Of a DNA stretch of 17,559 nucleotides, positions 47 to 16,645 are shown one piece after another (positions within the stretch are counted from its first letter, which is position 1; the number at the start of each line of letters is the position of its first letter). The translations under genes were made by a program, and so were the position numbers. Under the pieces are notes generated by a model. It ran no database searches. It was not told where the DNA came from and saw only the letters and a list, made by a program, of their open reading frames with translations. The DNA lies in NCBI GenBank assembly GCA_030620695.1, contig JAUXEA010000002.1, positions 1-17,559 of the forward strand, written 5' to 3'. The DNA is from Candidatus Aenigmatarchaeota archaeon (GTDB lineage Archaea > Aenigmatarchaeota > Aenigmatarchaeia > QMZS01).

Positions 47-135
47 ACATTCATCCTTCGGACGGTGCATCGTTTTTTCTTTAAAAAACGAATGAAACGG
101 TGCCTCTTTTCTGCAAAGCAGAAAAGCAGGAAGCC
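47..135 (+). repeat. Hairpin repeat element, copy 1 (nested, three hairpins)
   Basis: First of five related structured repeats in the window. Three hairpins follow one another. ATCC/GGA (53-56/60-62, loop TTC) is followed by CGGTGCAT. The second is an 8-bp stem, CGTTTTTT/AAAAAACG (71-78/83-90). After AATG and a second CGGTGCC comes a perfect 9-bp stem, CTTTTCTGC/GCAGAAAAG (106-114/118-126), then CAGGAAGCC. The outer bases CATTC (48-52) and GAATG (90-94) can pair around the first two hairpins, so one two-hairpin unit seems nested in the first arm of another. The CGGTGC junction and the CAGGAAG.C right end are shared with the tRNA-intron copy. No coding potential is seen. Confidence 0.7.
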
Positions 136-225
136 AAAAGAAAATAATTCATATTTTATAAAAAACAACGGTTTTTTCTAAAAGAATAAACCAGAACAAG
201 AAATTAATTGCTGAAAAAATTCAAG

Positions 226-306
226 TTTATATATTTCAAGCAAAAATTTGCTAAACTCCCGAATTCTGGGAGTATTTGGCTCATACTGTGAAAATACAGT
301 ATTTTT
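226..306 (+). other. Hairpin cluster with upstream TATA-like box; possible small RNA
   Basis: A TATA-like stretch (TTTATATATT, 226-235) is followed by three short hairpins: AGCAA/TTGCT (239-243/248-252), ACTCCC/GGGAGT (255-260/268-273) and ATACTGT/ACAGTAT (283-289/296-302). The last runs directly into a T-rich stretch, resembling a terminator. A transcript starting about 25 nt after the TATA box would begin near the second hairpin. The gene at 383 has its own TATA box further downstream, so this is either a short independent transcript or upstream regulatory structure. No known RNA family (C/D box, H/ACA, SRP, RNase P) is recognisable. Confidence 0.3.
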
Positions 307-340
307 ATATACTTGAATCTATATTTTCTATCACCGAAAA

Positions 341-360
341 CTATATATACTTTAAATACT
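341..360 (+). promoter_or_regulatory. TATA-box promoter of the 383-1225 gene
   Basis: An A/T-only stretch with ATATATA followed by TTTAAATA lies 23-42 nt before the ATG at 383. This spacing fits an archaeal TATA box with a short leader. GGTGA at 372-376, a few bases before the ATG, could act as a weak ribosome binding site. Confidence 0.5.
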
Positions 361-382
361 TATCTATTAGTGGTGAATTAGA

Positions 383-1225
383 ATGGCAGGAATTGGAAGC
401 GGGCAACAAGGATTTATGAGTGGTATGGCTTTTTTGCCTCCTGTAGGAAATACTGAGAAATGGATTACCTTGGGTGATGAAAAGGATATAAAAAATATTG
501 AGAAGTGGGGTATTGATAATTTTGGTTTAGATACAGAACTTTTTACCACAGGCAGGATTTCTTCTGTGGATGATAAGGGTAAACCAAAATATGAAAGGAA
601 ACCTATATTAGAAGCTTTAGATAATACTACTTCATTTTCAGAAATGGCAAAACCTTTCATAGCTGCACCTATAGAATACTATACTACACAAATTCTTGGG
701 AATATGATAGCTACAAACAGAAAGGCTGGGGTTGCAGAAAGAGTAGGTGCTGAAAGACTTATAAATACTGTGGACCTTGCTAAATGGTTTAACAATTATA
801 TTCTTGCATCAATGTTGGGTAAAGGCGCTGGAAAAACAGGTGCAATACCAGAAGAAAAAACAAAATATGAAGGAGAACAAATAAAAATTCTTGAGAAATA
901 CCTGCCAAGCATTATTCCTGAAATTGAAATGCAGATGACCCATTTGATAAAAAGCCGTGAACCACAGGGAGGTTATACTCCAAAAGATTTGAATAATTTT
1001 ATTAGAACTTACACTAGAGGCTCTGTTATGGAATTCATTGAGAGAGGTATTGATTATATAAATGATAATATTAAAAGTAGTGAATCATATGGAGATTATA
1101 ATATGACTGATTTGAAGGATCTTACAGAAAAATATGGTAAGGAATATGCTAAAGAAACAAAAGAAGTATTTAAAGCTTATAATGCCAAACTTAGTCATAA
1201 GGGATTGAATAATTTAGGGAATTGA
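383..1225 (+). CDS. Hypothetical protein, 280 aa, not recognised
   Basis: I do not recognise this family. The protein is soluble: there is no signal peptide and no long hydrophobic segment. The N-terminus is glycine-rich (MAGIGSGQQGFMSGMAF), followed by a mixed region to about residue 90. From about residue 95 to 280 it is mostly helical and charged, with a basic, lysine/glutamate-rich C-terminal third. A Gly/Lys patch (MLGKGAGKTGAIP, about residues 144-156) resembles a P-loop superficially, but it lacks a following Walker B motif and a hydrophobic strand before it, so I would not call it a nucleotide site. The ATG is supported by a TATA box at 341-360 and a GGTGA at 372. The next gene converges from the opposite strand. 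It is probably lineage-specific. Confidence 0.75.
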   Translation: MAGIGSGQQGFMSGMAFLPPVGNTEKWITLGDEKDIKNIEKWGIDNFGLDTELFTTGRISSVDDKGKPKYERKPILEALDNTTSFSEMAKPFIAAPIEYYTTQILGNMIATNRKAGVAERVGAERLINTVDLAKWFNNYILASMLGKGAGKTGAIPEEKTKYEGEQIKILEKYLPSIIPEIEMQMTHLIKSREPQGGYTPKDLNNFIRTYTRGSVMEFIERGIDYINDNIKSSESYGDYNMTDLKDLTEKYGKEYAKETKEVFKAYNAKLSHKGLNNLGN

Positions 1226-1239
1226 AAATGAGTTGGTTT

Positions 1240-1281
1240 GGAGATATAAAAATCATCTCCACTTCCCTATCCTGCGGGATA
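1240..1281. terminator. Hairpins between convergent genes
   Basis: Two short inverted repeats occupy the gap between the convergent genes: GGAGAT/ATCTCC (1240-1245/1255-1260) and TATCC/GGATA (1268-1272/1277-1281, loop TGCG). They may end transcription or stabilise 3' ends on either strand. Neither has a strong T-run, so the terminator role is an inference from position. Confidence 0.35.
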
Positions 1282-1310
1282 CACTCCTTAAATGGATATT
1301 CATTTAGATA

Positions 1311-1883
1311 TTAACGAGGAATAATTTTTTCTGACCTTTTTAATTGTTTTTTATAAAGTTCTAACTCCATTTCTGCTTCAGTTATTAACGCATTAATTAT
1401 GCTCATTTGTTCTTGATCTTTCTTATCTTCTGCTGCCTTTTTTCGTTCCTTTAATCTTATTATTTCACCTTCTTTTACATCAATTCTATCTTTGATTATT
1501 TTTGTATCGTATGTTTTCTCACCAAAGCCTCTTGCTGACTTTGCAAGTGATAGCCAATCCGAAATTGGCATAAATCTCGTCACTACAAATAAAACAAATG
1601 CTCCAATTAAGAAAAGTACAAGATAAGGCATAACAAATGCTGCAAAGATACCATAAAAACCAGTGTACACAATCACAATATAGAAAACAATCGCCAGTAA
1701 AGGCTTTATTTTAGGGTGTTCACTTTTAAGAAACATAGTTGCGGCAATATACAAAAAAATAATCATAATCACTGAGGGAACAAGCAAATACTCAATTAAT
1801 AATTTATCTAGCGGCATAGTTGAACAGTTTGAATAAGTTGTAGTGAGTTGGAACAAACTGCAAATTGTTTCCTGAATAACCAT
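1311..1883 (-). CDS. Three-helix membrane protein with C-terminal coiled coil, 190 aa
   Basis: Function unknown. After a polar N-terminus of about 28 residues come three hydrophobic segments: roughly residues 29-52, 61-82 (aromatic-rich) and 84-103. A cytoplasmic-looking tail follows. Residues about 129-187 are strongly charged and helical (KEGEIIRLKERKKAAEDKK and onward), typical of a coiled coil. The layout of a small membrane anchor plus a cytosolic coiled coil suggests a scaffold or a partner of a membrane complex; this is inference only. The start at 1883 is the first ATG. Met23 (1817) just before the first membrane helix is an alternative, because an AT-rich TATA-like stretch at 1893-1905 lies very close to the longer start. 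It converges with the 383-1225 gene. Confidence 0.75.
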   Translation of the reverse strand: MVIQETICSLFQLTTTYSNCSTMPLDKLLIEYLLVPSVIMIIFLYIAATMFLKSEHPKIKPLLAIVFYIVIVYTGFYGIFAAFVMPYLVLFLIGAFVLFVVTRFMPISDWLSLAKSARGFGEKTYDTKIIKDRIDVKEGEIIRLKERKKAAEDKKDQEQMSIINALITEAEMELELYKKQLKRSEKIIPR

Positions 1884-2058
1884 AATTATATTTTAAATAT
1901 AAAAAGAATTAGGAAAACATTTTTCTAAGTAATTCCATAACTTCTGAAAACAAAATACTTCAAGTAAAGAATAAATTTCTATAAACAAGTTGATGTGCAA
2001 AGAAAATTTATTTTAATAAATCAATCTTTGAAGTAAAAACCAAATAATTTGTGTAAAA

Positions 2059-2074
2059 ACTTTATATATATACC
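2059..2074 (+). promoter_or_regulatory. TATA-box promoter of the lysine-rich protein gene
   Basis: TTTATATATATA is centred about 24 nt before the ATG at 2090. This spacing predicts transcription starting at or next to the start codon, that is a leaderless mRNA. No Shine-Dalgarno sequence is seen. Confidence 0.55.
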
Positions 2075-2089
2075 CCAAGTTAATAAATT

Positions 2090-2404
2090 ATGGTAAGCAA
2101 AACAGAAATGTTGAAAGTAATACCACGAGTGAAGTTAGCATCAGCGATAAAGAAAAAAAGAAAAAAAGTTCCGATGAGTTGGAACAAAGAAAAAATTGCT
2201 GAACAACTTTCTTTTGATGAACTAAGAAAACTTTATGGAAGTGTGAAAGTTAAACCTGCAAGGAAAAAAGTTGTAAAGAAGAAAGTTAAAAGAAAAGTTG
2301 TAAAGAAAAAACCTGCAAGGAAAAAAGTTGTAAAGAAGAAAGTTAAAAGAACAGTTGTAAAGAAAAAACCTGCAAGGAAAAAAGTTGCTAAAAAAAGAAG
2401 ATAA
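2090..2404 (+). CDS. Lysine-rich histone-H1-like basic protein, 104 aa
   Basis: Residues 1-54 form a small basic domain with a likely helical segment (NKEKIAEQLSFDELRKLYGS). Residues 55-104 are almost entirely Lys, Arg, Val, Pro and Ala. They are built from a 19-residue unit, KPARKKVVKKKVKRKVVKK, present twice plus a shortened third copy that ends in KKRR. Such tails resemble histone H1 and bacterial H1-like proteins and bind nucleic acids without sequence specificity. A chromosome-packaging or RNA-binding role is therefore likely but inferred from composition alone. The gene is monocistronic, with a TATA box at 2059-2074 and a T-rich tract directly after the stop. The repeat copies are nearly identical at DNA level, so copy number may vary between strains. 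Confidence 0.8.
   Translation: MVSKTEMLKVIPRVKLASAIKKKRKKVPMSWNKEKIAEQLSFDELRKLYGSVKVKPARKKVVKKKVKRKVVKKKPARKKVVKKKVKRTVVKKKPARKKVAKKRR
2252..2401 (+). repeat. In-frame 57-bp coding tandem repeat, about 2.6 copies
   Basis: Units start at 2252, 2309 and 2366; the third is truncated. Copies 1 and 2 appear to differ at a single base (an AAA versus ACA codon, Lys to Thr). A 57-bp period keeps the frame and encodes the 19-residue basic unit. Near-identity with no synonymous drift implies recent duplication or gene conversion. Confidence 0.85.
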
Positions 2405-2445
2405 TTTTTTGTTTTTATTTTGTTTTTATTATTTTAAATTTTATT
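2405..2445 (+). terminator. Oligo-T terminator after the lysine-rich gene
   Basis: Immediately after the stop codon come several T-runs of four to six bases, separated by single G or A bases, with no hairpin. Archaeal RNA polymerase terminates at such oligo-T tracts. The remaining sequence to 2564 shows no gene that I can support. Confidence 0.5.
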
Positions 2446-2564
2446 ATCACAATACCCCTTCCAACAGAGGCAGAGACTCGGTTCATTATTTTAGAATCCA
2501 ATTATTTAATTTTATCATTAATTAAACAAGTATTGAAAAATTTAGAAAATAAAAAAATAAATTA

Positions 2565-3047
2565 TTATTCACATTCTCTTGATGTTTGGCTCCATTGTTT
2601 AGCATCCGGACAACAAGCAGGATCTGGGTTCCCATCTTTTGCAGTGTTACATTTCCAAGTAGATCTGCCAAAACCCATCTGACATTCCTTGTCTCCTACT
2701 CCACCAGTTGCACTACAAGAGGTTCCTTCTACAATCACAGTACCACAACATTTATTTCTACACCAATACTCTGATACAGTATCATCTTGGTATTTTGCCC
2801 TGCAAATTAATAGTAATGAATCCTTTATACCATCACCCGTTATATCTGCAACCATTATACCCTCCACCTTATCAGCCTCACAATTGTGGGACTTCAATAT
2901 GCTGCAACCCTGACTCCAAGCACTCTCTAAACTTGTAGCACTCATTTGTCTTGTACCTCCAAAGAAGAACATTGCAAGCATTAGCAAAACCATTATTGCT
3001 AAGGCAACTATAATTACTGTATTTACTGGCATTTCAATACCTTTCAT
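2565..3047 (-). CDS. Cys-rich type IV pilin-like protein with class III signal peptide
   Basis: The N-terminus MKGIEMPVNTVIIVALAIMV is a class III (prepilin/archaellin-type) signal. A short basic leader ends in Lys-Gly, and the cut would fall before Ile-Glu, followed by one hydrophobic helix of about 20 residues. The remaining roughly 125 residues are extracellular and contain about a dozen cysteines, including Cys-Cys pairs, so they are probably disulphide-bonded. An acidic loop, ADITGDGIKDS, looks like a dockerin/FG-GAP-type calcium loop (D-x-T-G-D-G). It is likely a surface pilin-like subunit or adhesin. I start it at the second ATG (3047), giving 160 aa. The TATA box at 3068-3078 is then about 25 nt upstream; the ATG at 3053 would add only Met-Arg. 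No prepilin peptidase or assembly ATPase lies in the window. Confidence 0.75.
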   Translation of the reverse strand: MKGIEMPVNTVIIVALAIMVLLMLAMFFFGGTRQMSATSLESAWSQGCSILKSHNCEADKVEGIMVADITGDGIKDSLLLICRAKYQDDTVSEYWCRNKCCGTVIVEGTSCSATGGVGDKECQMGFGRSTWKCNTAKDGNPDPACCPDAKQWSQTSRECE

Positions 3048-3065
3048 TCTCATAATTTAATTATT

Positions 3066-3079
3066 TAAGTATATATAAG
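3066..3079 (-). promoter_or_regulatory. TATA-box promoter of the pilin-like gene
   Basis: On the minus strand, TTATATATAC is centred about 26 nt before the ATG at 3047, predicting a leaderless message. It abuts the 25-bp tandem repeat at 3076-3125, so that repeat lies directly upstream of the promoter. Confidence 0.5.
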
Positions 3080-3125
3080 GGTTTTCTTTTTCTGTTAACG
3101 TAAGGGTTTTCTTTTTCTGTTAACG
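3076..3125 (+). repeat. 25-bp direct tandem repeat, two copies
   Basis: Two exact 25-bp copies (3076-3100 and 3101-3125) begin TAAGGGTTTTC and end GTTAACG. They are followed by the partial unit TAAGG, which runs into repeat element copy 2. They lie between the pilin-like promoter and that element. Two copies without spacers is not a CRISPR array; duplication or polymerase slippage next to a mobile element is the simplest reading. Confidence 0.85.
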
Positions 3126-3126
3126 T

Positions 3127-3238
3127 AAGGCTTTTATTGGTAGAACTTCAAAAAGCACTCGTTGTTCCAACGGTGCATCTTTGCTTCGCAAAGAAAGTTC
3201 TATCATTTACCCTATCTTCGCCTTCGGCTCGACAGGCT
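3127..3238 (+). repeat. Hairpin repeat element, copy 2
   Basis: The left end AAGGCTTTTATTGG matches the tRNA-intron copy. An 11-position outer stem with one G-T pair, TGGTAGAACTT (3138-3148) with AAGTTCTATCA (3195-3205), encloses two hairpins. The first is CAC-T-CGTT/AACG-GTG (3156-3163/3170-3176 region), with a single unpaired T. After CAT comes CTTTGC/GCAAAG (3179-3184/3188-3193). A cruciform or three-way junction can therefore form. Downstream, GCCTTCGGC makes one more small hairpin and GGCTCGA echoes the GGCTCGAGCC palindrome of copies 3 and 5. No ORF is present. Confidence 0.75.
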
Positions 3239-3294
3239 TTCAAAAACTATTAACCCAAAAAATTGAAGTTACTATTTTAATCAATAAATAATTT

Positions 3295-4569
3295 ATGGGT
3301 CCAAAAACAGGTAATTTTGTTGTTGTTGAAAAAAATAAGGAGAAATGGGAAGGAACTGTAGTACAAATTAGTGAGGACTTAATAACCTTAAAATTAAAAT
3401 CAGGATACAATGTTGGAATTAAAATTAGTGAAGAAACAAAGATTAAAAAAATTAGTGAGGAAAAAGCAAAGAAACATAAGCCTGTGAAATTTGAATTAAA
3501 GTTTGATAAAACCAAACCCTTGGTTTCTATTTTGTCAGCGGGGGGGACAATTGCATCTTCTATTGATTATACAACCGGAGCAATCTCTGCTTCTTATTCT
3601 GCTTCCCAACTGGTTGCTTCTGTTCCTGAGTTAGTTAATTTTGCGAACATAAAATCAAAAAAAATTTTGGAAGAGATGAGTGAGAACTTACTTCCAAAAC
3701 ACTGGAAAAAAATTGGTGCTGAAGTTTTTAAAGAATTAAAGGATAGTAAAGGTGTTATTGTTACTCACGGAACAGATACATTGGGTTATACTTCATCAAT
3801 GCTTTCTTTCATGTTAAGAAATTTAAACAAGCCTATTGTTTTAACCTTTGCACAAAAAAGTTCTGACAGGGGAAGCAGTGATGCATCAATGAATTTAATT
3901 TGCTCAGCAATAACAGCAACAAAAAATATTGCAGAAGTTGTTGTTGTAGGGCATGGAACAATTGGTGATGAGTATTGTTTAATTAACAGGGGAACAAAAG
4001 TCAGAAAAATGCATTCTTCACAGAGAAATGCTTTCAGACCAGTTAATTGTTCCCCGATTGGAAAAGTCTGGCAGAATGGAAAAGTTGAGTTTATAAGCGA
4101 ACACAAAAAAAAGGAAGAAGTAAAAGAAAACTGTTATCTAGATGACAGGATTGAAGAGAAAGTTGCAATAATAAAATCATATCCCGGGCTTAACCCGGAG
4201 ATTATTGATTTTTATATTGACAAAGGATATAAAGGAATTGTTATTGAGGGAACAGGTCTGGGTCATGTTAATGCTGGAGAGAAATCTTTAGTGCCACAGA
4301 TTAAAAGAGCAATTGAAGAGGGAATTATTGTAGCAATGACAACACAGACAATTTACGGGAGAGTTAATCCTTATATTTATTCTGCTGCAAGAAAACTATC
4401 TAAATTAGGAGTGCTTTACTTGGAAGATTTACTAACAGAAACTGCTTACATAAAATTAATGTGGGTTCTTGGGCATACTCAAAACGAGAAAGAAATTAAG
4501 GAATTAATGCTGAAAAATCTTGCTGGAGAATTTAATCCAGGACTGAGACCTGATATGTTTTTATATTAA
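3295..4569 (+). CDS. gatD: Glutamyl-tRNA(Gln) amidotransferase subunit D
   Basis: GatD is the glutaminase subunit of the archaeal GatDE complex, which converts mischarged Glu-tRNA(Gln) to Gln-tRNA(Gln) using ammonia from glutamine. Residues 1-70 form the GatD-specific beta-rich N-domain (KWEGTVVQISEDLITLKLKS, then GYNVGI). The rest is L-asparaginase-like. Catalytic residues are in place: the first Thr in SAGGTIAS (T85), the HGTDT motif (T160, D161) and the Lys in VRKMH (K238). The 424-aa length is normal for the family. The partner gatE is not in the window, so it is encoded elsewhere. A 21-bp gap leads to the SIS gene on the same strand, which may be co-transcribed. The start at 3295 is the first ATG and gives the family N-terminus. 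Confidence 0.95.
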   Translation: MGPKTGNFVVVEKNKEKWEGTVVQISEDLITLKLKSGYNVGIKISEETKIKKISEEKAKKHKPVKFELKFDKTKPLVSILSAGGTIASSIDYTTGAISASYSASQLVASVPELVNFANIKSKKILEEMSENLLPKHWKKIGAEVFKELKDSKGVIVTHGTDTLGYTSSMLSFMLRNLNKPIVLTFAQKSSDRGSSDASMNLICSAITATKNIAEVVVVGHGTIGDEYCLINRGTKVRKMHSSQRNAFRPVNCSPIGKVWQNGKVEFISEHKKKEEVKENCYLDDRIEEKVAIIKSYPGLNPEIIDFYIDKGYKGIVIEGTGLGHVNAGEKSLVPQIKRAIEEGIIVAMTTQTIYGRVNPYIYSAARKLSKLGVLYLEDLLTETAYIKLMWVLGHTQNEKEIKELMLKNLAGEFNPGLRPDMFLY

Positions 4570-4590
4570 GTTTTATTTATAAATAGTAGT

Positions 4591-5751
4591 ATGGATTTTA
4601 TAAAGCAAAGTAAAGAAAATCTTGAAAATGTAAAGAAAGAGGAAATAGAGATATTGTATGATTCTTTATATCCGAAAACTCCTCGTGCTATTTACTTAGA
4701 CGGCGAACCGGGCGGGAGGACTCTCCAGGGACTAAAAGTAGGTACAGATGAGTTGGGGTTATTGTTTGAAAAAATTAAAGTTAATTATGTTGGCGGCAGC
4801 CATTCTCCTGGTAGAAATATTGTAAAAGCATTCCAAAATTTAGAAAAAGTTTATGATAACTGCAATTATCTTTGTGTTTCAGGGAGTGGAGAATCTGTAA
4901 CCCCTTACAAAAATCTAAAAGAATTAACAGAAAAACATAAATCAAAAAAACTTATTCTAAACCTGATAACCTCTTATCCAGATTCTTCAATGGGGGAAAT
5001 GGTAAAAAATTACGGGGGCAATATACTTGAACTCAAGGGTCGTAAATCAAAAACCAGTAATGGTATAGAATATATAAGAGAAGGACTACTCGAAGATGAA
5101 TTTGAACTTGAAACTACTGAACTGGCAAGTATAATTACCAGAGGGATCTTAGAGGAAATTGAACTGGATGGTTTCTATAATTATTATAAAGATAAATTAA
5201 AAGAACTTGATAAAACAAATAGCTTAATAGAAGATTTAAAGAAAACACAGGAATATGAATTATTTTTAGGATATTTATTTAATCCTGCGAAAAATTTCTT
5301 CTCATGCGGGCAGGAAGTGAGCAATGAAGTAGTTAAGATGAATTGTACAAGAATAGGGCATACAAGACCAAGCACTGCAAAAAGAGTTGGTATAGAACCG
5401 GATCCAAGTTTAGGAATTGGAGCAAACCGGAATGTTGTTATTGGTGAAAGCAATATAGGGAACATGGATAAAAATTCAGTACTTCTCGGCGTTTCCAAAT
5501 CTGGCACAGGCAAAATCGAAAAATATCTGGGGGATGCTAAAAAGATTGGGGCTGAGCGTTTTTTAATAACAAAATATGGAGAAATGGAAGAAGGAGGAAA
5601 TATGCTTAAATTAAATAGCAATAATTTTTATACTGATACATGCTTTTTTCTTTCCCGTAGTCTTATGGATTTGGGATATAGACTTGTGGGAGAAGGAATA
5701 GAAGTCAATGAGGATATATTAAGAGCAATTCATGTTAATGACAAAAAATAA
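4591..5751 (+). CDS. Tandem SIS-domain sugar-phosphate isomerase-like protein, 386 aa
   Basis: Two SIS (sugar isomerase) folds appear in tandem. The first carries the phosphosugar-binding loop VSGSGESVTPYKNLKEL (residues about 96-112) and a following strand-helix repeat ending near residue 150. The second starts near NFFSCGQEVSNE (about 235) and has a comparable loop, LLGVSKSGTGKIEKYL (about 298-313), followed by GAERFLITKYG. The double-SIS layout is that of GlmS isomerase domains and related aldose-ketose isomerases or deaminases. No glutamine amidotransferase domain is fused. The substrate cannot be assigned: glucosamine-phosphate and other sugar phosphates are all possible. It lies 21 bp after gatD and 41 bp before the tRNA gene. 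Confidence 0.75.
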   Translation: MDFIKQSKENLENVKKEEIEILYDSLYPKTPRAIYLDGEPGGRTLQGLKVGTDELGLLFEKIKVNYVGGSHSPGRNIVKAFQNLEKVYDNCNYLCVSGSGESVTPYKNLKELTEKHKSKKLILNLITSYPDSSMGEMVKNYGGNILELKGRKSKTSNGIEYIREGLLEDEFELETTELASIITRGILEEIELDGFYNYYKDKLKELDKTNSLIEDLKKTQEYELFLGYLFNPAKNFFSCGQEVSNEVVKMNCTRIGHTRPSTAKRVGIEPDPSLGIGANRNVVIGESNIGNMDKNSVLLGVSKSGTGKIEKYLGDAKKIGAERFLITKYGEMEEGGNMLKLNSNNFYTDTCFFLSRSLMDLGYRLVGEGIEVNEDILRAIHVNDKK

Positions 5752-5831
5752 ACTCAACTCACAAAATCCTTTTTAGAAAGATTATAATTTATGGACCTGT
5801 AGCTCAGTCCGGATAGAGCGACACCCTCCTA

Positions 5832-5942
5832 AGTCAGCCTTTTATTGGTTAGGTTGTATAAACACTCGTTTGCTTTGCAAACGGTGCCCATTTTGCCAAA
5901 AGCAAAATCAGGAAGGCTCGAGCCAAAAAATAAAACGGGGTT
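5832..5942 (+). other. tRNA intron with bulge-helix-bulge splice motif
   Basis: The intron lies at the canonical 37/38 position. The central helix pairs exon bases CTCC (5826-5829) with GGGG (5937-5940), including one G-U pair. The 5' bulge is TA^A (5830-5832) and the 3' bulge is TT^A (5941-5943). A short outer helix pairs GT (5833-5834) with AC (5935-5936). This is the substrate of the archaeal tRNA splicing endonuclease EndA. The intron is much longer than most archaeal tRNA introns because nearly all of it is hairpin repeat copy 3. Confidence 0.85.
5836..5924 (+). repeat. Hairpin repeat element, copy 3, inside the tRNA intron
   Basis: Terminal inverted repeats AGCCTT/AAGGCT (5836-5841/5913-5918) enclose two hairpins. 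The first is CAC-T-CGTTTGC/GCAAACG-GTG (5863-5873/5877-5886), with one unpaired T. After CCC comes a perfect 7-bp stem, ATTTTGC/GCAAAAT (5890-5896/5902-5908), then CAGGAAGGCT. The palindrome GGCTCGAGCC (5915-5924) follows and recurs next to copy 5. The left end GCCTTTTATTGG matches copy 2, and the junction CGGTGCC and right end CAGGAAG match copy 1. This is the clearest copy for defining the ends. Confidence 0.85.
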
Positions 5943-5987
5943 AGGTGAAGGTCGCAGGTTCAAATCCTGCCAGGTCCGTTTTAAAAT

Positions 5988-6896: not shown

Positions 6897-6906
6897 ATCA
6901 CTTCTT

Positions 6907-7578: not shown

Positions 7579-7595
7579 AATCAGATATTTATTTG

Positions 7596-7620
7596 TATTT
7601 AAATAATTCTTCACTTTTAA
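7596..7620. promoter_or_regulatory. Divergent promoter region with opposing TATA-like boxes
   Basis: On the plus strand, TATTTAAA (7596-7603) lies about 35 nt before the GTG at 7635. On the minus strand, TTTAAAAG (7613-7620) lies about 38 nt before the ATG at 7578. The paired layout supports the shorter start for both divergent genes. Confidence 0.4.
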
Positions 7621-9174: not shown

Positions 9175-9385
9175 ATTATTATATTATAATGATTAATAAA
9201 TCGTAGTTCCTAATAGAGAATTAATGTTGAACTTAGCATTATCAAAATATTATATTTAATGCAGGTTAAAAAAACCCAACCAAAAAAATCAAAACAAAAT
9301 ATTTGAGTCAAAGAAACGATATTATCATTTTTTAAAATTAACAAAAATTATGCTCTTCTGCAATAATTCTCTTCCTCACACATCT

Positions 9386-9811: not shown

Positions 9812-9990
9812 AAAATAATAATTACATTAATTAAATTAACAAATCAGGGAATTTGGGTTAATGTGTATTTTTTAAAGCTAAGTCAATTATGATTAATCAA
9901 GAGAAATATTTATAGAACCTTTAAATTGAATGAATCTATTTAAAAATTGAATGAAAATTCAGTGATAAAGAAATTGAATATTAACCATTT

Positions 9991-11085
9991 ATGAAACTAA
10001 AAACAATCAAAGAAGGAAATATAAAAATCAGGGTTCCTGTTGAAGAAGAACTCACAAAAAAGATGAGTGTGTTTTATAATCCTGAAATGAAATTCGACAG
10101 GGATTTGTCAGAAATTATTGTCAAAATTTTAAAGCCGAAAAAAATTTGTGATTGCCTTGGTGCTTCAGGGGTAAGGGGACTGAGATATGCAAATGTTTTG
10201 AAGGAATTAGTTAATAAGGATACTCTTTCCAATTACCTGGAAGTTGTTTTAAATGACACAAATCCGAATGCGGTTAAGTTAATGAAAAAAAATATATCCC
10301 TTAACAAACTAAAAGCAAGGACTGAAAACATGAATGCAAACAAACTCCTGCTTGAGGAGATGTTTGATTTTATTGACATTGACCCTTTTGGCTCTCCGAT
10401 TTATTTTCTTGATTGCGCAGCAAAGTCAATAAGGAACAAGGGGGTTGTTGCTTTAACAGCAACTGACACAGCCCCTCTCTGCGGAACTTCTCCTCTAACC
10501 TGTCTGAGAAGATATGAAATAAAAAGTCTGCGAACAGATTTTTCAAAAGAACTTGGATTGAGAATTTTGATTTCCGGTACAATCAGAAATTTCGCAAAAT
10601 ATGATTTAGCATTCAATCCAATTTTCTCTTATTACAGAAAACATTATTTCAGGATTTTCGGAAAAATTGAGAGAGGTTGCAAGAAAACAGATTTATTGAT
10701 GAAACAATTTAATTATCTTTCTTATTGCCAAAAATGTGGTTTTAGGAAGGAAGGAATTTTAGAGAAATGTGAATTTTGTGGGAACAAAACAAATTTAATC
10801 GGTAAAGTGTATCTCGGGAATTTTGGTGATAAAAATTTTTGTGATGAAATTAAAAAAATTGCAGAGAAAGAATTTGATTATTTATCAAAATTGGTGGGCA
10901 CTGTAAAAGAAGAGCAAAATTTTCCTCCTTATTTTGATATTCACAAACTCTGTAAATTAAATAAAAAACAACCAAAGAAAATGGAAATTTTATTAGAAAA
11001 ATTAGAAGGAAAAAGAACTCATTTTTCAAACACAGGAATAAAAACAAATAAAAGTTTTGAAGAGGTTTTGAAGGCTTTGGATTAA
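9991..11085 (+). CDS. trm1: tRNA (guanine26-N2)-dimethyltransferase Trm1
   Basis: Trm1 methylates G26, at the junction of the D arm and anticodon stem, using S-adenosylmethionine. The N-terminus has the family signature KIRVPVEEE and FYNPEMKFDRDLS. The SAM site shows CDCLGASGVRGLRYA (about 53-67), LNDTNPNAVKLMKKN (acidic ribose-binding Asp) and catalytic-loop motif DIDPFGSP (129-136). LTATDTAPLCGT and PIFSYYRKHYFRIFGKIERG are also typical. A C-terminal zinc finger has C246, C249, C260 and C263. The length of 364 aa is normal. The tRNA-Arg of this window carries G26 and is a plausible substrate. Possible TATA elements at 9907-9916 and 9935-9946 are rather far from the ATG. Confidence 0.95.
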   Translation: MKLKTIKEGNIKIRVPVEEELTKKMSVFYNPEMKFDRDLSEIIVKILKPKKICDCLGASGVRGLRYANVLKELVNKDTLSNYLEVVLNDTNPNAVKLMKKNISLNKLKARTENMNANKLLLEEMFDFIDIDPFGSPIYFLDCAAKSIRNKGVVALTATDTAPLCGTSPLTCLRRYEIKSLRTDFSKELGLRILISGTIRNFAKYDLAFNPIFSYYRKHYFRIFGKIERGCKKTDLLMKQFNYLSYCQKCGFRKEGILEKCEFCGNKTNLIGKVYLGNFGDKNFCDEIKKIAEKEFDYLSKLVGTVKEEQNFPPYFDIHKLCKLNKKQPKKMEILLEKLEGKRTHFSNTGIKTNKSFEEVLKALD

Positions 11086-11135
11086 GATTTTGTGGTATCA
11101 GAAATTAGAATTTTACTTTTAGTTTAAATAAAATT

Positions 11136-11879
11136 ATGAGAATCACTTTAGTTTATGACAATGAAGTTTACAAAGAAGGTCTTGAGGCTGACTGGGGTTT
11201 TTCCTGCCTTGTAGAAACAGGGAATAAAAAAATTCTTTTTGATACTGGAACAAGCGGAAGAATACTTCTCAGCAACATGGAAAAACTTGGTATTAATCCC
11301 AACAAAATTGATGAAGTTTTTATCTCTCACTCTCATTTTGACCACACAGGGGGGCTTTCAGCTTTTCTGGACAAGAACAACAATGTCAAAGTTTATGTTC
11401 CTGCTTCATTTAGGGGAGTTCACAATGCCAAAGAAGTGATTCATGTAAAAGAGCCAATTAAAATTCATGAAAACACTCGTCGTTCCAACCGACCCTTTTA
11501 TCAGTTAAATTTATTAAAAAGCGTCGACGGAAAAAGGAAATTGGTTAACGACGGTGCATCGTTGCGAAGCAACGAATGTATTTTTTCAACCGGGGAATTG
11601 GAAGGAATAGAACAATCTTTAGCAGTTAGAACAGAAAAAGGAATTGTTGTAATTGTTGGCTGCTCTCATCCGGGAGTTAAAAATATTCTCAAGGCAGCTT
11701 CTCAATTTGGAAAAGTTTATGCTCTTATTGGTGGCTTGCATGGATTCAGAGAATTTGATTTGCTTAAAGATTTAGAATTAATTTGCCCCTGCCATTGCAC
11801 TCAATTCAAGGAAGAAATAAAATCTTTGTATCCTGAAAAATATATTGAGGGTGGAGTTGGTAAAGTAATTGAAATATAA
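11136..11879 (+). CDS. Metallo-beta-lactamase-fold protein (MptG/dihydropterin-synthase-like) carrying an in-frame repeat insertion
   Basis: This MBL-fold hydrolase belongs to the family annotated in archaea as 7,8-dihydropterin-6-methyl-4-(beta-D-ribofuranosyl)aminobenzene-5'-phosphate synthase; the real substrate is uncertain. Metal ligands are visible: HSHFDH (H65, H67, D69, H70), H178 in GCSHPG, and H202 in GGLHGF, with a later CHC motif. ILFDTGTSG and STGELEGIEQSL are family features. The oddity is residues 114-148 (about 35 residues, TRRSNRPFYQLN to SNEC). They separate IKIHEN from IFSTGELEG, which are adjacent or nearly so in relatives I know, and are encoded exactly by hairpin repeat copy 4. 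Without it the protein would be 212 aa. The metal site is intact, so the protein may still work. Its stop is 2 bp from that of the convergent pgsA-like gene. Confidence 0.85.
   Translation: MRITLVYDNEVYKEGLEADWGFSCLVETGNKKILFDTGTSGRILLSNMEKLGINPNKIDEVFISHSHFDHTGGLSAFLDKNNNVKVYVPASFRGVHNAKEVIHVKEPIKIHENTRRSNRPFYQLNLLKSVDGKRKLVNDGASLRSNECIFSTGELEGIEQSLAVRTEKGIVVIVGCSHPGVKNILKAASQFGKVYALIGGLHGFREFDLLKDLELICPCHCTQFKEEIKSLYPEKYIEGGVGKVIEI
11474..11579 (+). repeat. Hairpin repeat element, copy 4, in frame inside a coding gene
   Basis: The element begins ACACTCG (11473-11479) and ends CGAATGT (11573-11579), an imperfect inverted repeat. Stem 1 is CAC-T-CGTCGTT with AACGACG-GTG (11474-11484/11547-11556), again with a single unpaired T. 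It is extended by AACC/GGTT (11487-11490/11543-11546) and CCTTTT/AAAAGG (11494-11499/11532-11537). After CA comes stem 2, TCGTTGC/GCAACGA (11559-11565/11569-11575, loop GAA). The inserted block of about 105 bp is a multiple of three and has no stop in the host frame, so the gene stays open. Confidence 0.8.
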
Positions 11880-11881
11880 AA

Positions 11882-12439
11882 TTAAAGAGATTTCAAAACA
11901 GCAAAAAACCGGTAAACAAGGGAAATTAAGGATAGAATTAAAATCAGCAAAATCCCGAAATCCAGAACAAACAAAAACTCCGAAACAATCAGGAAAATGA
12001 AGAGAAAAAAGAACCTGTCTGCTCTTCCAAACCCGGAATAAAGTCTTTTTTTGGTTAATGCCTGTGCCTGGGTTCCCAGGTAAGAAACCAAAAGAATTAC
12101 AATTAAAGTCAAAAATCCCAAGACCAAATTAACCCCTGGACTAAATGCAACACCAAGAAAAATAAAAGTGTCAGAGAGCCTGTCAAAAGTGTGATCAAGA
12201 AAATCACCTTTCTTTGTTGCTCCATATTTCTTTGCAATTGCACCATCTAAAATATCACAATAACAGTGGAGAATTAAGAAAACTGCGGCAAAGAGATAGA
12301 ATCCCCTGAAAATCAGGTAAGCAGCAGGAATTGATAATAAAAGCCCAATAACAGAAATATAATTCGGATTTATCTTTTTTAAAAAAGGTTTTGTTATTTT
12401 CTCCTTAAACCCAAGTTTTTTGTCTATCTTATCTAACAT
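11882..12439 (-). CDS. CDP-alcohol phosphatidyltransferase family membrane enzyme
   Basis: A membrane enzyme that swaps the CMP of a CDP-activated lipid for an alcohol, making phospholipid head groups. The catalytic signature D-x2-DG-x2-A-R-x8-G-x3-D-x3-D is present as DILDGAIAKKYGATKKGDFLDHTFD; A-R is A-K and the spacer is one residue shorter. Around it are about five to six hydrophobic helices (for example YISVIGLLLSIPAAYLIF and LVLGFLTLIVILLVSYLG), as expected for the fold. The 185-aa length is normal for a single-domain member. In archaea this family includes archaetidylinositol-phosphate and archaetidylglycerol-phosphate synthases; the alcohol acceptor cannot be told from sequence alone. 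It is divergent from the OB-fold gene (17 bp between starts) and convergent with the MBL gene. Confidence 0.85.
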   Translation of the reverse strand: MLDKIDKKLGFKEKITKPFLKKINPNYISVIGLLLSIPAAYLIFRGFYLFAAVFLILHCYCDILDGAIAKKYGATKKGDFLDHTFDRLSDTFIFLGVAFSPGVNLVLGFLTLIVILLVSYLGTQAQALTKKRLYSGFGRADRFFFLFIFLIVSEFLFVLDFGILLILILSLISLVYRFFAVLKSL

Positions 12440-12456
12440 AAAATTAAGTATAAATT

Positions 12457-12903
12457 ATGCAAGAAAGACAGGTTGCAAAGAAGATAGATATAAAAACCAT
12501 AAACACCGGGAATTTTATTCAGGTTGACAGGACATCAGAAGAAAACAAGTACCTCCCAAACTATATTGAAGTTGATGGCGTGAAAATCTCAAGAGTGAGA
12601 ATTTTGGCAACTGTTTTGGATAAATTTGTTTCAGAAGACGGAAATTATGCGGCTCTGACTCTTGACGACACAACAGATACAATCAGGTGCAAAATATTCC
12701 TGAACAGTAAGTTTGGGGATGACAGTTCAAGACAGATTTTAATTGATTTGGAAACTCTGGAAAATTTTGAAAAAGGAGAGTTAGTAGATATAATTGGGAA
12801 GGTTAAGGAATACAATGAAGAAAGATATATCCAGCCGGAGATTATTATAAAAATTGATGACCCAAATTTCGAGGTTTTGAGGAAATTGGAGTTAAGCAGG
12901 TAA
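12457..12903 (+). CDS. RPA-like OB-fold nucleic-acid-binding protein, 148 aa
   Basis: A single OB fold occupies residues about 40-135: SRVRILATVLDKFVSEDGNY, AALTLDDTTDTIRCKIF (strand-turn-strand), then LVDIIGKVKEYNEERYIQPEIIIKI. This pattern matches the archaeal RPA-associated/RPA32-like OB proteins that accompany or substitute for the single-strand DNA-binding protein RPA. The N-terminal 40 residues are polar. The final segment FEVLRKLELSR is a short helix. No zinc finger or winged helix is fused, so this may be one subunit of a multi-subunit RPA; the large subunit is not in the window. The ATG at 12457 lies 17 bp from the divergent phosphatidyltransferase start. A small zinc-ribbon gene follows after 27 bp but has its own TATA box. 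Confidence 0.8.
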   Translation: MQERQVAKKIDIKTINTGNFIQVDRTSEENKYLPNYIEVDGVKISRVRILATVLDKFVSEDGNYAALTLDDTTDTIRCKIFLNSKFGDDSSRQILIDLETLENFEKGELVDIIGKVKEYNEERYIQPEIIIKIDDPNFEVLRKLELSR

Positions 12904-12911
12904 TATATATT
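12902..12911 (+). promoter_or_regulatory. TATA box of the DUF5679 gene
   Basis: AATATATATT overlaps the stop codon of the OB-fold gene and is centred about 24 nt before the ATG at 12931. This predicts leaderless transcription of the zinc-ribbon gene independent of the gene before it. Confidence 0.5.
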
Positions 12912-12930
12912 ACTAAAAGAACTATAATAT

Positions 12931-13128
12931 ATGGTAGAAGGATATTGTGTTGTATGTAAAGAAAAAGGGGTTAAGATGAAAAATCCTGTGATTGGCAAAA
13001 CTTCAAAAGGGGGTTTTATAGCAAAAGGAATTTGCTCAAAGTGCAATAAAACAAAGATGTGTGCTATGATGTCTAAAGACAATGCAGAAAAAGCAATCAA
13101 AGACGGCGAAGCTAAAAAAGGGTATTAA
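12931..13128 (+). CDS. DUF5679 zinc-ribbon protein, 65 aa
   Basis: A tiny zinc ribbon with two CxxC knuckles: YCVVCKEKGVKMKNP at the start and GICSKCNKTKMCAMM near residue 34-47. The layout GYC-x2-C---- MKNP ---- G-C-x2-C matches the DUF5679 family, whose members are found in many archaea and some phages with no established role. The extra Cys after KTKM and a basic-acidic tail (KDNAEKAIKDGEAKKGY) are additional. It probably binds zinc through four cysteines and might contact nucleic acid, but no function is established. It sits 27 bp after the RPA-like gene. The 184 bp downstream hold only the thrC promoter. Confidence 0.8.
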   Translation: MVEGYCVVCKEKGVKMKNPVIGKTSKGGFIAKGICSKCNKTKMCAMMSKDNAEKAIKDGEAKKGY

Positions 13129-13257
13129 AAATTGCAATTGCGGAACAAACATGTTTAAATCTGGAAAATGAATTAGTTTTTTATTAGTCCTCAACAAAAA
13201 GAATCATTAGAGTTGGGATAAAAATAGAAAGATCATGAAGAAGAAAATTAGAACTTG

Positions 13258-13273
13258 CTATTTATATTTAATC
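13258..13273 (+). promoter_or_regulatory. Probable TATA box of thrC
   Basis: TATTTATATTTAAT lies about 45-55 nt before the thrC ATG, so a leader of about 20-25 nt is expected. That leader consists of two near-identical 16-nt copies (13281-13296 and 13298-13313) of an AT-rich unit, TTTTTAATAATGTTTA, with one mismatch. The first copy includes an ATG that opens a three-codon ORF (13290-13301), ending before thrC. Confidence 0.4.
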
Positions 13274-13312
13274 CCATAAATTTTTAATAATGTTTATTTT
13301 TTAATAATATTT

Positions 13313-14734
13313 ATGGATAGAATAAAATATAGAGATACCAATGGAATATCTCCAGAAGTTACAAGAAGAGAGGCTATATTAAACAGTCAGCCACCCAGTG
13401 GTGGTTTATATGTTCCTACTGAAATACCTAAATTTTCTAAAAGAGAAATAGAATCTCTTAGAGGGGTGGATCTTCCAGAAATTGGTTATTGTGTTATGTC
13501 AAAGTTTCTTAAAGGTGAGATTCCTGATGATTATATTCAAAAGATATGTGAAGACGCCCTGAATTACCCAATACCCATTGAACAAGTACATAATGGAGTT
13601 TATACAGAGAGGCAAGGGATAGGACCAACAGGTGCTTTTAAAGATACAGCAGCAAGAATTCTGGCAAGAGAGGCAAGTTATTACATTCAGCAAGAAAGTG
13701 ATAGTGAATTTTGGCTCTTAGTTGCTACTTCAGGAGATACAGGTGCTGCAATTAGAAGTGGATTTCATAAAGTGCCTGGAATTAATGTAATTATTTTGTA
13801 CCCGAAAAACAATGTAACTGAGACCCAAGCAGCTCTTATGGATAGATATGGTGAGAACATAATAGCTTTGGCATGTGATGGTCCATTCGGTGATCTTCAG
13901 GAAATATGTATGACTGCTTTTTCAGATCCAGATTTAAAAAGATTTAATTTATTCTCTGCAAACTCAATAAATATAGGTAGAGCACAACCACAGATTATCC
14001 ATGCAATTATTCCCTTAACTGATGATAGAGTGATGGAAAGTGGAAAGGACCCTTATTACGTAATTCCTGGTGGAAACCTTGGGCATACTTATGCATTCTT
14101 ATTAGCAAGAGAAATGGAAGCTTTTGATAGTAATGTTATTGTTGCAAATAATTCCAACAATGTTTTTGACAGGTTTCTAAAAACTGGAAAGTATGAAGTT
14201 CAAGATGTTGTTAAAACTATTTCAAATGCCATGGATGTTGATGATCCAAGCAATGCCAGAAGAATATTTGATATGTTTGGTGGAAGGCTTATTAGAGATA
14301 AGAAATATATTACCAAAACAGGTAAGGAAAAATTAGTATGTAGAATTGACAAGATGCCAGACCTTGAAAAAATGAGAGAAATTATATATTCAACTACTGT
14401 CAGTGATGAAGAAACAAAAAAAACCATCAAAGAACTTTATGATGAACATAACATAATTTTTGAACCGCATGGTGGAGTAGGTGCTACGGCAGCAAAAAGA
14501 TTTGCCCCTATTTTAGAAAAAAACAGGAAGATTGTTACGATGGCAACAGCTCATCAAGGGAAATTTCCTGAAGTACTTGAAGAGATTGGTATACAAGTGG
14601 AGACTCCTGATTATATGAAAGATGCGTTAAACAGACCTTCATATGCAATAAACTTTCCAAATAATTATAACGACTTTAAAAAGTTTTTACTTTCTGGAAA
14701 GGCTGAAAAAGTTATAAAGAGACAGAAAAGTTAA
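13313..14734 (+). CDS. thrC: Threonine synthase
   Basis: A PLP enzyme that converts O-phosphohomoserine to threonine. It is of the longer class with the N-terminal Thr_synth_N domain (YRDTNG, then PPSGGLYVPTEIP, residues 6-37), as in many bacteria and yeast. The PLP lysine is K110 in GPTGAFKDTAARI. The substrate/PLP phosphate segments are ATSGDTGAA (from 138), the PGGNLGHTYAFLLA region (family SGNFGN--AG, here altered) and PHGGVGATAAKRF near the C-terminus (family DPHTAVG). The 473-aa length is normal. No homoserine kinase or dehydrogenase gene adjoins it, so the organism may import or scavenge precursors, or encode them elsewhere. It stands alone between its own promoter and a convergent protease gene. 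Confidence 0.92.
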   Translation: MDRIKYRDTNGISPEVTRREAILNSQPPSGGLYVPTEIPKFSKREIESLRGVDLPEIGYCVMSKFLKGEIPDDYIQKICEDALNYPIPIEQVHNGVYTERQGIGPTGAFKDTAARILAREASYYIQQESDSEFWLLVATSGDTGAAIRSGFHKVPGINVIILYPKNNVTETQAALMDRYGENIIALACDGPFGDLQEICMTAFSDPDLKRFNLFSANSINIGRAQPQIIHAIIPLTDDRVMESGKDPYYVIPGGNLGHTYAFLLAREMEAFDSNVIVANNSNNVFDRFLKTGKYEVQDVVKTISNAMDVDDPSNARRIFDMFGGRLIRDKKYITKTGKEKLVCRIDKMPDLEKMREIIYSTTVSDEETKKTIKELYDEHNIIFEPHGGVGATAAKRFAPILEKNRKIVTMATAHQGKFPEVLEEIGIQVETPDYMKDALNRPSYAINFPNNYNDFKKFLLSGKAEKVIKRQKS

Positions 14735-14776
14735 AATAATTGATAATACTTTTTTAGAGAAAAATATTCATCCAAG

Positions 14777-15370
14777 TTACAAAAACATAATAACACCAAA
14801 AAGCCCGATTGCTATTGCGAAAACCAAAACCCATATTTTTCGATTATAATAGAAAACTTTTGAACCATCAAGAGGGGGAAAAGGGAGTAAATTGAAAATT
14901 GCAAGCCAAATGTTAATGCAGGCAATTCTAAACCAAATATTTATTCCTAGTATGGCTATAGGATGAATAAAATTCAATAAAATAAATAAAATACCAAGAA
15001 CAATATTTACTACAACCCCCGCAATAGATATTTTCAAAGATATATTTCTAAGTTTTTCCCTGCTGCCGCTAAAAATCCCTCTCTGGTGGATTACAACCGC
15101 ACCCGGGGCAGCAATAAGAAAACCGAACAGGGAAGAAACAACTGCAAGAATAACTCCCTTCACCCACATCTCGTAATTTGCCTGAAGCCCATATTTTCTG
15201 GCGACCTGCCTGTGACCAAATTCGTGGGAAAGAAATGAAACTGCAACAATGAATAAATATATTAACAAAGCCTCTATACTTGGTATGCCAACACCTTCAA
15301 ACAAAAACATAAATGCCACACTCAAAGCAACCCATGAAACCAAAATGTCTCTCACTTCTGTTCTATCCAT
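14777..15370 (-). CDS. M50-family (site-2 protease-like) membrane metalloprotease
   Basis: An intramembrane zinc protease of the small archaeal/bacterial M50B type. The zinc motif HEFGH is at residues 49-53 in SFLSHEFGHRQVARKYG. The second metal site is NLLPFPPLDG (160-169) with Asp168, matching the family N-x-P-x-x-LDG. About five hydrophobic helices surround them. A helix precedes HEFGH, and the VVVNIVLGILFILLNFI helix lies before the LDG motif. The ATG at 15370 gives 197 aa, typical of stand-alone members without PDZ domains. An extended reading frame upstream to 15484 lies antisense to ychF and is not credible. It diverges from ychF with only 16 bp between starts, so their promoters must lie within each other's coding sequence. 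The substrate is unknown. Confidence 0.88.
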   Translation of the reverse strand: MDRTEVRDILVSWVALSVAFMFLFEGVGIPSIEALLIYLFIVAVSFLSHEFGHRQVARKYGLQANYEMWVKGVILAVVSSLFGFLIAAPGAVVIHQRGIFSGSREKLRNISLKISIAGVVVNIVLGILFILLNFIHPIAILGINIWFRIACINIWLAIFNLLPFPPLDGSKVFYYNRKIWVLVFAIAIGLFGVIMFL

Positions 15371-15386
15371 AAAAACATTATTAATA

Positions 15387-16529
15387 ATGAAAATAGGTTT
15401 AGTAGGGAAACCAAGTTCAGGGAAGTCAACTTTTTTTAAGGCAGCAACCCTGATTGATGTGAAAATAGGGAATTTCCCTTTCACAACAATAACACCAAAC
15501 CGGGGATTTGGTTATGTGAGAGTAGAATGTGCTGAAAAGTTTTTTAATGTAAAATGCAACCCGAGACAGGGTTATTGTATTGATGGAAACAGGTTTGTTC
15601 CTGTTGAATTAGTTGATGTTGCAGGACTGGTTCCGGGAGCGCACGAGGGAAGAGGAATGGGAAACAAGTTTCTGGATGATTTAAGACAGGCAGACTGTTT
15701 AATACATGTTGTTGACGCTTCGGGAACAACAGACAGCGAGGGAAGAGAATGCATTGAACATAATCCTGCGGAAGATATTAAATTTCTTGAGGATGAATTA
15801 AATTACTGGTTTCTCTCAATCATTGAAAGAAACTGGAGAAAAATGAATGATATTAAATGTCTTGCAAAACAATTGTCCGGTTTGAAAGTTTCAGAAAAGT
15901 TAATAACAGGAATAATAAAAAAACTGGGTTTTGATGAAACTATAAAATCGTGGGATGAGGAAAAAAGATTAATTTTTTCAAAAGAAGTGAGAAAACAGGT
16001 TCAGCCTATTCTTATTGCAGCAAACAAGATTGATAAACCTGAAGCAGGTAAATGGGTTGATGAATTAATCAAACTCGGAGCAATTCCCTGCTCCGCTGAA
16101 GCGGAATTTGCATTAAAAGCCGCAGCAAAAAGCAATTTGATAAAATATATTCCAGGGGATAAAAATTTTGAGATAACAGGGCAGGTTACAGAAAAACAAA
16201 AACCTGCTCTGGAAAAAATTAAAATCATTCTGAAGAGATTTGGTTCAACAGGAGTACAGAAAATAATCAATGAGTCTGTTTTCGGAGTTTTAAAATATAT
16301 GACCATTTTCCCGGGCGGGGTGAAAAAACTTTCTGACAAGGACGGAAATGTTCTTCCAGATACTTTCCTGATGCCCCCGGGCTCAACTGCACTTGACTTT
16401 GCTTACAGAATTCATGAGGATTTTGGGAAAAAATTCATTACTGCAATAAATGTTAAAACAAAACAAAGAATTGGAAAAGACCATCTGCTAAAAGAAGGCG
16501 ATGTTATCGAACTTGTTGCTGGCAGGTAA
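15387..16529 (+). CDS. ychF: YchF/Obg-related GTPase with C-terminal TGS domain
   Basis: A translation-associated GTPase/ATPase of the archaeal YchF type. G1 is [12 protein letters not shown] (family usually GKPNVGKST, so N-V is S-S here). The switch region is [15 protein letters not shown]3 is [17 protein letters not shown] followed by [19 protein letters not shown], a hallmark of the family. G4 is AANKID. A TGS domain (about 310-380) closes the protein with [17 protein letters not shown] and [10 protein letters not shown] start it at the ATG at 15387 (MKIGLVG), giving 380 aa; the open frame back to 15249 is antisense to the protease gene. The 3' end is odd: after the stop, a hairpin repeat is followed by a second copy of the last eight codons (16646-16672). 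Confidence 0.93.
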
Positions 16530-16550
16530 TTTGAGTGAAGAATGTTTTTT

Positions 16551-16645
16551 GGCTCGAGCCTTTTTATCCAATTCCTTCTTTTTGCAGAATGCAAAAAGGG
16601 GTGCCGTTTTTCTTCGAAAAACCAGCATACTCAATAAAAGGCTCG
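16551..16645 (+). repeat. Hairpin repeat element, copy 5, at the 3' end of ychF
   Basis: Terminal inverted repeats CGAGCCTTTTTAT (16555-16567) and ATAAAAGGCTCG (16634-16645) pair over 12 bp with one bulge. Inside are two perfect hairpins: CTTTTTGC/GCAAAAAG (16578-16585/16591-16598, loop AGAAT), then GGTGCC, then GTTTTTC/GAAAAAC (16606-16612/16616-16622, loop TTC), followed by CAG. The palindrome GGCTCGAGCC at 16551-16560 is identical to that at the right end of copy 3. The element lies between the ychF stop and the duplicated ychF tail. The left arm lacks CACTCG. Confidence 0.8.

Follow-up and report, generated by a model that had tools for sequence, protein, structure and literature searches.

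Rickettsia palindromic elements (RPE) are short palindromic mobile elements that occur repeatedly in frame in unrelated protein genes of a small-genome lineage; the available text of their description puts them at about 150 bp, in ten families, with a conserved peptide (PMC10969869). The hairpin elements of mitochondria, double-hairpin in fungi and hairpin-forming in sponges, consist of adjacent hairpins that are thought to be mobile and, as far as the available text of two reports goes, lie mostly between genes and sometimes in rRNA or protein genes (PMC5910586, PMC2800124). Here, we describe a double-hairpin element that works like both, found in a 17,559-nt stretch of contig JAUXEA010000002.1 (assembly GCA_030620695.1) from Candidatus Aenigmatarchaeota archaeon, hereafter the window; the comparison is made by description, and membership in either group is not claimed. 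Among the titles and abstract openings listed by searches of open-licence literature, none described such elements in archaea. This one would be an archaeal counterpart of the in-frame palindromic elements, residing inside tRNA synthetase, ribosomal protein, and tRNA genes, and it comes with clean evidence of movement, namely sites that are precisely empty in congeners, in as many as eight of them in one case. It makes testable the recognition or copying of a hairpin pair with free stems, the preference for the sense strand, and the entry of new loops into conserved proteins.

The archaeal element resembles RPE in being inserted in frame in protein genes and absent from their orthologues (five insertions in four proteins). 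It differs from RPE, as the latter appear in the portion of the report at hand, in its length of 42–57 nt, the lack of a conserved peptide, and stems whose sequence is not conserved, as well as in a fixed unpaired base in each hairpin, the use of several reading frames, copies carried in tRNA introns, and an archaeal host. Like the mitochondrial double-hairpin elements, of which those of Allomyces are reportedly an example, it is a mobile unit made of two adjacent hairpins. The mitochondrial elements are, in contrast, organellar, and the sponge elements, going by the same available text, vary in their loops and conserve their stems, opposite to the archaeal family. The fixed bulge and the carriage in tRNA introns are features of the archaeal element that are not mentioned for the mitochondrial ones in the available parts of PMC5910586 and PMC2800124.

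The unit consists of two abutting hairpins and measures 42–57 nt in 28 of 29 copies strictly parsed from loci of the source genome and its congeners. Hairpin 1 has a 3-bp base followed by a single unpaired T on the 5′ arm, then a stem and its loop; hairpin 2 has a 3-bp base, stem, and loop, with an unpaired base on the 3′ arm just before the base closes (A in 21, T in 6, and C in 2 of the 29 copies). Because this base is usually A, hairpin 2 is again a T-bulged hairpin when read on the opposite strand. Typical forms are CACTCG..CGGTG joined to CATCG..CGAATG or to CCTC..GTAGG, and the element ends at the foot of the hairpin. When the junction alone was fixed (GTGC, GCACC, or ATGCA), a single T bulge was present in 46 of 51 hairpins of the source genome and 57 of 78 of the congeners. 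The basal triplets around the T bulge alternate, being mainly CAC/GTG (20), CAT/ATG (10), and TGC/GCA (5) at the source genome's own loci. A reversed-sequence control mirrors T and A bulges and is therefore not independent, so the bulge letters were compared instead: T 56, A 14, C 4, and G 10 in the source genome, and T 73, A 13, C 7, and G 5 in the congeners.

The element is mobile, and its ends are precise. Sites were compared across nine genomes of the genus, the source genome (G000) included, all of them incomplete. Copy 4 of the window (11474..11578, plus strand) is a 105-nt in-frame insertion, CACTCG..GAATG, in an open reading frame (ORF) of the metallo-beta-lactamase (MBL) superfamily (PF00753; 11136..11879, plus strand), and its site is empty in G149, G150, and G151, where residues 1–113 and ~147–247 of the protein align to adjacent DNA. 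At this position, G152 carries a version of 42 nt; the ~63 nt that copy 4 holds nested in its hairpin 1 loop were therefore added later in the source genome. Matches to the MBL protein are weak and partial in G148, G154, and G155 and cover its first 46 residues alone in G153. A 45-nt in-frame insertion in arginyl-tRNA synthetase (ArgRS), with a predicted junction peptide that includes the stretch TLARKGGASFASQTN, is absent in all eight relatives. A ThiI/NFACT-R-like ORF (locus L020) has in-frame insertions of 48 and 99 nt, each absent in seven of seven matching relatives, and ribosomal protein S4e of G153 carries a 45-nt in-frame insertion absent in all five other genomes with a match. These five in-frame insertions, in four proteins, have empty orthologues.

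Removal of the element restores the length seen in relatives at the MBL, ArgRS, and L020 sites without any target-site duplication, unlike a classical miniature inverted-repeat transposable element. The unit also enters copies of itself: in a G151/G155 pair, an older element has been split by a 48-nt one precisely at the boundary of its two hairpins. The flanks of the 29 parsed copies are rich in A, on the right at +1 (79%) and +2 (90%) and on the left at −1 (86%), −2 (66%), −3 (72%), and −4 (38%).

Distribution of the element was analyzed with two covariance models of the double-hairpin unit (R1 and R2) and by pattern search in a phylum set of 156 genomes. The source genome comprises 547 kb in 122 contigs (66% complete); the window is its contig 27, on which the GatD/asparaginase gene has its nearest named relative on an Aenigmarchaeota contig (66% identity). 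After merging over strands and duplicates, R2 identified 64 distinct loci in fetched stretches of the source genome (46 sources) and 68 in stretches from seven congeners, G150 not among them (61 sources), so that the further copies for which the first-pass annotation had called for a search do exist. No match at E ≤ 0.01 was found in a control set of 20 loci (297 kb; 19 archaeal and one bacterial), where the best E was 0.21. The pattern CACTCG..CGGTGC gave 23 matches in the source genome and none when reversed. It occurred 54 times in seven of the nine genus genomes (23 in the source genome, 13 in G151, and 2 to 6 each in G148, G152, G153, G154, and G155), with no match in G149 and G150. Among the remaining phylum genomes, the only family-like match, judged by eye, was in G147, of the same family. 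R1 matches at E ≤ 0.1 were found in all nine genus genomes, from 88 in the source genome down to 2 in G149, a count that includes both strands of near-symmetric copies. Those of G150 are weak, scoring 19.9 bits at best and lacking the unpaired T, and the element is not claimed for that genome. As far as tested, the element is confined to one genus of Aenigmarchaeota-like archaea. Carriage on the viral contigs scanned was also considered and rejected: two scans gave no match, and a looser scan gave four, which have no second hairpin by eye, although R1 matches these four, selected by the pattern, at E 1e-5 to 0.0014.

Within the window, paired hairpins with a GGTGC-type junction are present at all five places where the first-pass annotation had described them. 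The hexamer CGGTGC occurs five times, always on the plus strand, as had been stated (shuffled mean 0.72; none of 200 shuffles reached five). Four of the five copy regions fold better than all 200 of their shuffles (z −3.1 to −4.1); folding of copy 3 is not exceptional (z −1.9, with 7 of 200 shuffles equally good). A strict structural scan, which recovered copy 3 alone in the window and gave 0–2 matches per shuffle, was too strict and was dropped. Copy 1, previously taken as one unit at 47–135, is two nested elements. The outer one (28..130, plus strand) holds the inner one in the loop of its hairpin 1, CAA-T-CGTTT..AAACG-GTG, and has CCT..C-AGG as hairpin 2; it was read from the sequence, R1 matching its right part alone (98–132) and weakly (E 0.95). 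The inner one (48..94, plus strand), CATTCATCC..GTG joined to CATCG..CGAATG, is matched by R2 at 48–97 on the plus strand with 34.3 bits, versus 26.1 on the opposite strand. Copies 2, 3, and 4 agree with the first-pass annotation apart from their ends. Copy 2 (3156..3197, plus strand), recognized by pattern, folding, and R2, lies between two divergent ORFs and is enclosed by an additional stem, GGTAGAACTT/AAGTTCTATC. Copy 3 (5863..5912, plus strand), inside a tRNA gene, reads CAC-T-CGTTTGC..GCAAACG-GTG in hairpin 1 and CCC-ATTTTGC..GCAAAAT-C-AGG in hairpin 2. Copy 5 (16574..16627), immediately downstream of a TGS-domain GTPase gene, reads TGC-T-GGTTTTTC..GAAAAAC-G-GCA followed by CCC-CTTTTTGC..GCAAAAAG-A-AGG on the minus strand: the plus-strand sequence GGGGTGCC is the reverse complement of a GGCACC variant, and both R1 and R2 match 16571–16627 on the minus strand. 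The single orientation proposed for the five loci therefore does not hold. Of the shared arms noted earlier, CACTCG recurs across the genome in the pattern CACTCG..CGGTGC; since the unit opens with CAC and closes with ATG or AGG, CAGGAAG(G)C belongs to the element in part only.

Protein-coding genes carry copies in frame and, for the most part, in sense. ORFs (frames of at least 150 codons, with at least 30 before and at least 20 after the copy) harbor 31 of the 132 merged loci, of which 26 are sense and 5 are antisense (two-sided binomial 0.0002); with three orthologous pairs merged, 24 of 28 are sense (again 0.0002). L134 matches weakly and has 17% GC, and L016, by eye, precedes a pilin-like start, which leaves two of the five antisense cases in doubt. 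Antisense frames are not closed more often, being open in 123 of 165 cases versus 105 of 165 for sense (55 of 61 candidates). Lengths were divisible by three in all nine parsed ORF copies versus 6 of 20 others, a comparison that the open-frame filter favors; the orthologue comparisons are independent of that filter. The encoded peptides begin TLV.., NTR.., or HS.. depending on the frame, so that more than one reading frame is used. At least one copy, in antisense (L250/L103; G151 contig 26, 65096–65144), seems to break the frame of a transposase-like gene, which we take to be IS1595-like. Such a sense bias would follow from insertion into DNA made single-stranded by transcription, from selection against antisense peptides, or from an RNA route.

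Further copies lie within tRNA introns. The gene that carries copy 3 is a tRNA-Arg(CCT) (5793..5978, plus strand; Rfam tRNA, 48.3 bits) with an intron of ~110 nt near the anticodon. ARAGORN found no tRNA in the uncut window; of the 553 trial cuts that were scored, 20 yielded tRNA-Arg(cct), and for most of the rest no amino acid was assigned. Trial cuts also identified tRNAs with the element in an intron at L138 [Ile(GAT)] and L127 [Ser(GGA)] in the source genome and at L173 [Arg(TCT)] in G155. All four tRNAs carry it in the sense direction, but the scripts accepted the strand of the element alone and would therefore have missed antisense cases; for the window tRNA, the Rfam match shows sense independently. 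Four further loci (L004, L015, L017, and L019) appear as intron-bearing tRNAs by eye alone: trial cuts gave no tRNA match at L004 and L017 and conflicting anticodons at L015 and L019, and none at L129. The tRNA reading obtained after these trial cuts would imply that tRNA copies are removed at the RNA level.

This placement recalls archaeal bulge-helix-bulge introns, given that several copies lie inside tRNA introns and that one intron type recurs across tRNA genes and between genes. The unit differs from such introns in that it is itself inserted within one: the T-loop intron of the L017 tRNA carries it, whereas the L020 paralogue is empty at ..GGGTAAA/AACCC... It also resides in ORFs in frame. 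The recurring intron type is a second repeated unit, CGAGGCTTTTATTGG..CCTCGAGCCAAAAA..AATAAAAG and variants, seen as T-loop introns in several tRNA genes and also between genes (L020:747, L017:970, L127:1511, and, on the minus strand, L138 and L016; at L139, intergenic, as copies in close succession). It appears to be a tRNA intron that proliferates, often with the double-hairpin element aboard. L199 and L200 are orthologues of window positions 5793–5978, with a tRNA-Arg(CCT) and the same downstream gene. By eye, G152 lacks the anticodon intron and has two others (D-loop and T-loop), and G150 has a T-loop intron, an arrangement that, so viewed, points to rapid intron turnover within one gene.

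Structure, rather than sequence, is conserved across the family. An inner stem of at least 3 bp was present in 48 of 54 pattern matches from the genus versus 9 of 71 from the rest of the phylum, the pattern fixing the outer letters only. In the R2 alignment, 94.2% of paired cells are standard versus 85.5% in shuffles, in line with the earlier claim that stems differ and yet stay complementary, and both sides have changed in 10 of 11 pairs (91 such cells versus 20.1 in shuffles). Because the structure guided this alignment, and near-symmetric copies enter it on both strands, the pattern-based test is the cleaner of the two. A tip seen in hairpin 1 of one copy can recur in hairpin 2 of another. 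The claim that structure is preserved holds for the family, but resident copies also decay: in a copy common to G152 and G153 in a TraB-family gene, G153 has lost one pair relative to G152, uncompensated, and in the G152 copy at the MBL site hairpin 1 is damaged, while hairpin 2 has one compensated pair. We therefore trace the conservation back to the mobile source or to the mechanism of copying, and not to selection acting on individual sites.

Taken together, we consider it probable that the sequences form a genus-specific, non-autonomous mobile double-hairpin element that is recognized by its shape and tolerated in genes. Its movement probably proceeds as single-stranded DNA and depends on an enzyme that would read the bulged hairpins, most likely in single-stranded form; this enzyme would most likely be a single-strand transposase of Y1/HUH type or similar, acting in trans. 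Hairpin tips may be exchanged or rewritten as a unit, which would change stems and keep them complementary. Insertions in genes would survive if in frame and be translated as short polar peptides; those in tRNA genes would survive inside introns that are spliced out. Recognition of the Y1/HUH kind is supported by the unpaired T, a feature that IS200/IS605 hairpins also have, by the lack of target duplication, by Y1_Tnp matches in five of the nine genus genomes, and by the lack of reverse transcriptase matches (PF00078, RVT_1) in all nine, incomplete as they are; a reverse transcriptase partner was rejected on the latter count. Several observations weigh against this reading. Simple DNA transposition does not predict the sense excess in ORFs. 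The single T bulge is absent in 5 of 51 own and 21 of 78 congener hairpins, and the left ends of the 29 copies have no fixed target tetra- or pentanucleotide, being A-rich alone. No Y1_Tnp match was found in the source genome (66% complete), G149, G154, or G155, yet G154 and G155 have 21 and 14 model matches, respectively, strands counted apart. Finally, the hairpins differ beside the four Y1 genes inspected of 15 listed (L242, L243, L244, and L250), on which account cognate ends on these four were discarded as a candidate. A bolder form of the proposal, which we put forward tentatively as a lesser possibility, is a mobile element defined by shape only, in which the 3-bp base, the extrahelical base, and the hairpin junction are conserved and the stem is free; it would enter expressed genes mostly in sense, perhaps via the strand displaced when a gene is transcribed or via RNA, and supply translated peptides and tRNA-intron cargo.

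An element moving at the RNA level would enter transcripts by reverse splicing or RNA ligation, then undergo reverse transcription and recombination, and might be excised from RNA. It would account for the bias to sense in 26 of 31 ORF copies although antisense frames are at least as open, and for copies in introns of several tRNA genes; transposition of archaeal tRNA introns is moreover an idea already published, to judge from the part of the literature at hand. We regard this as rather unlikely, given the lack of RVT_1 in the incomplete genomes, the five antisense ORF copies (two doubtful), and lengths divisible by three, even if the filter favors these; all five orthologue-tested insertions are in frame, which excision from RNA would not need. 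Somewhat less likely still is mutational templating alone, in which template switching or recombinational swaps of hairpin tips create a structure that no enzyme or selection reads. The tips shared between hairpins 1 and 2 of different copies and the uncompensated changes in resident copies fit it, but it leaves unexplained both precise insertion at new sites and a bulge position conserved while the surrounding bases change. The strong covariation would also suit a structured RNA gene or regulatory element under selection, such as a riboswitch or small RNA; we give this very little credence, as the tested positions are not common to congeners, save for a few copies in two species, as copies lie inside ORFs, tRNAs, and one another, and as the window has no Rfam match besides the tRNA. 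That AT-rich DNA simply contains inverted repeats by chance, or transcription terminators, as the frequent T and A runs in stems might suggest, has a negligible probability: the shuffles, the zero count of the reversed pattern, the 20 control loci devoid of matches at the cut-off, and the precise empty sites rule out chance repeats.

The kinship with REP/RAYT and IS200/IS605-derived elements suggested by the first-pass annotation is not established, since Y1 matches occur in five of nine genomes but not in the source genome, itself 66% complete, and the four Y1 genes inspected have different hairpins beside them. In IS200/IS605 elements, the hairpins have unpaired bases and insertion proceeds without target duplication; a literature search on the unpaired T returned nothing. 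Like these groups, the archaeal element is a small, non-autonomous palindrome, and REPs within genes have been reported in the available text of one study (PMC3733652). Unlike them, it has no GTAG or CGTC tag seen beside the hairpins, its target is merely A-rich, its end is the hairpin foot, and none of the four inspected Y1 genes is accompanied by the same hairpins.

Some further observations concern the surroundings of individual copies. A perfect 25-nt tandem duplication lies at 3076–3125, immediately upstream of copy 2. In window positions 16500–16672, the last codons of the TGS GTPase occur twice, flanking copy 5 (..ELVAGR stop and ..EIVAGR stop), as if insertion of the copy had brought or duplicated the gene end; a comparison of this 3′ end with relatives returned nothing. 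In G148 (contig 27, 4454–4833), a match to the double-hairpin model marks the point where a Y1 transposase match falls into two parts. The MBL gene of G152 (L187) is broken by an insertion of ~340 nt, an end of which is similar to the hairpin region that precedes the Y1 gene of that genome; this insertion is apparently a separate non-autonomous element of IS200/IS605 type.

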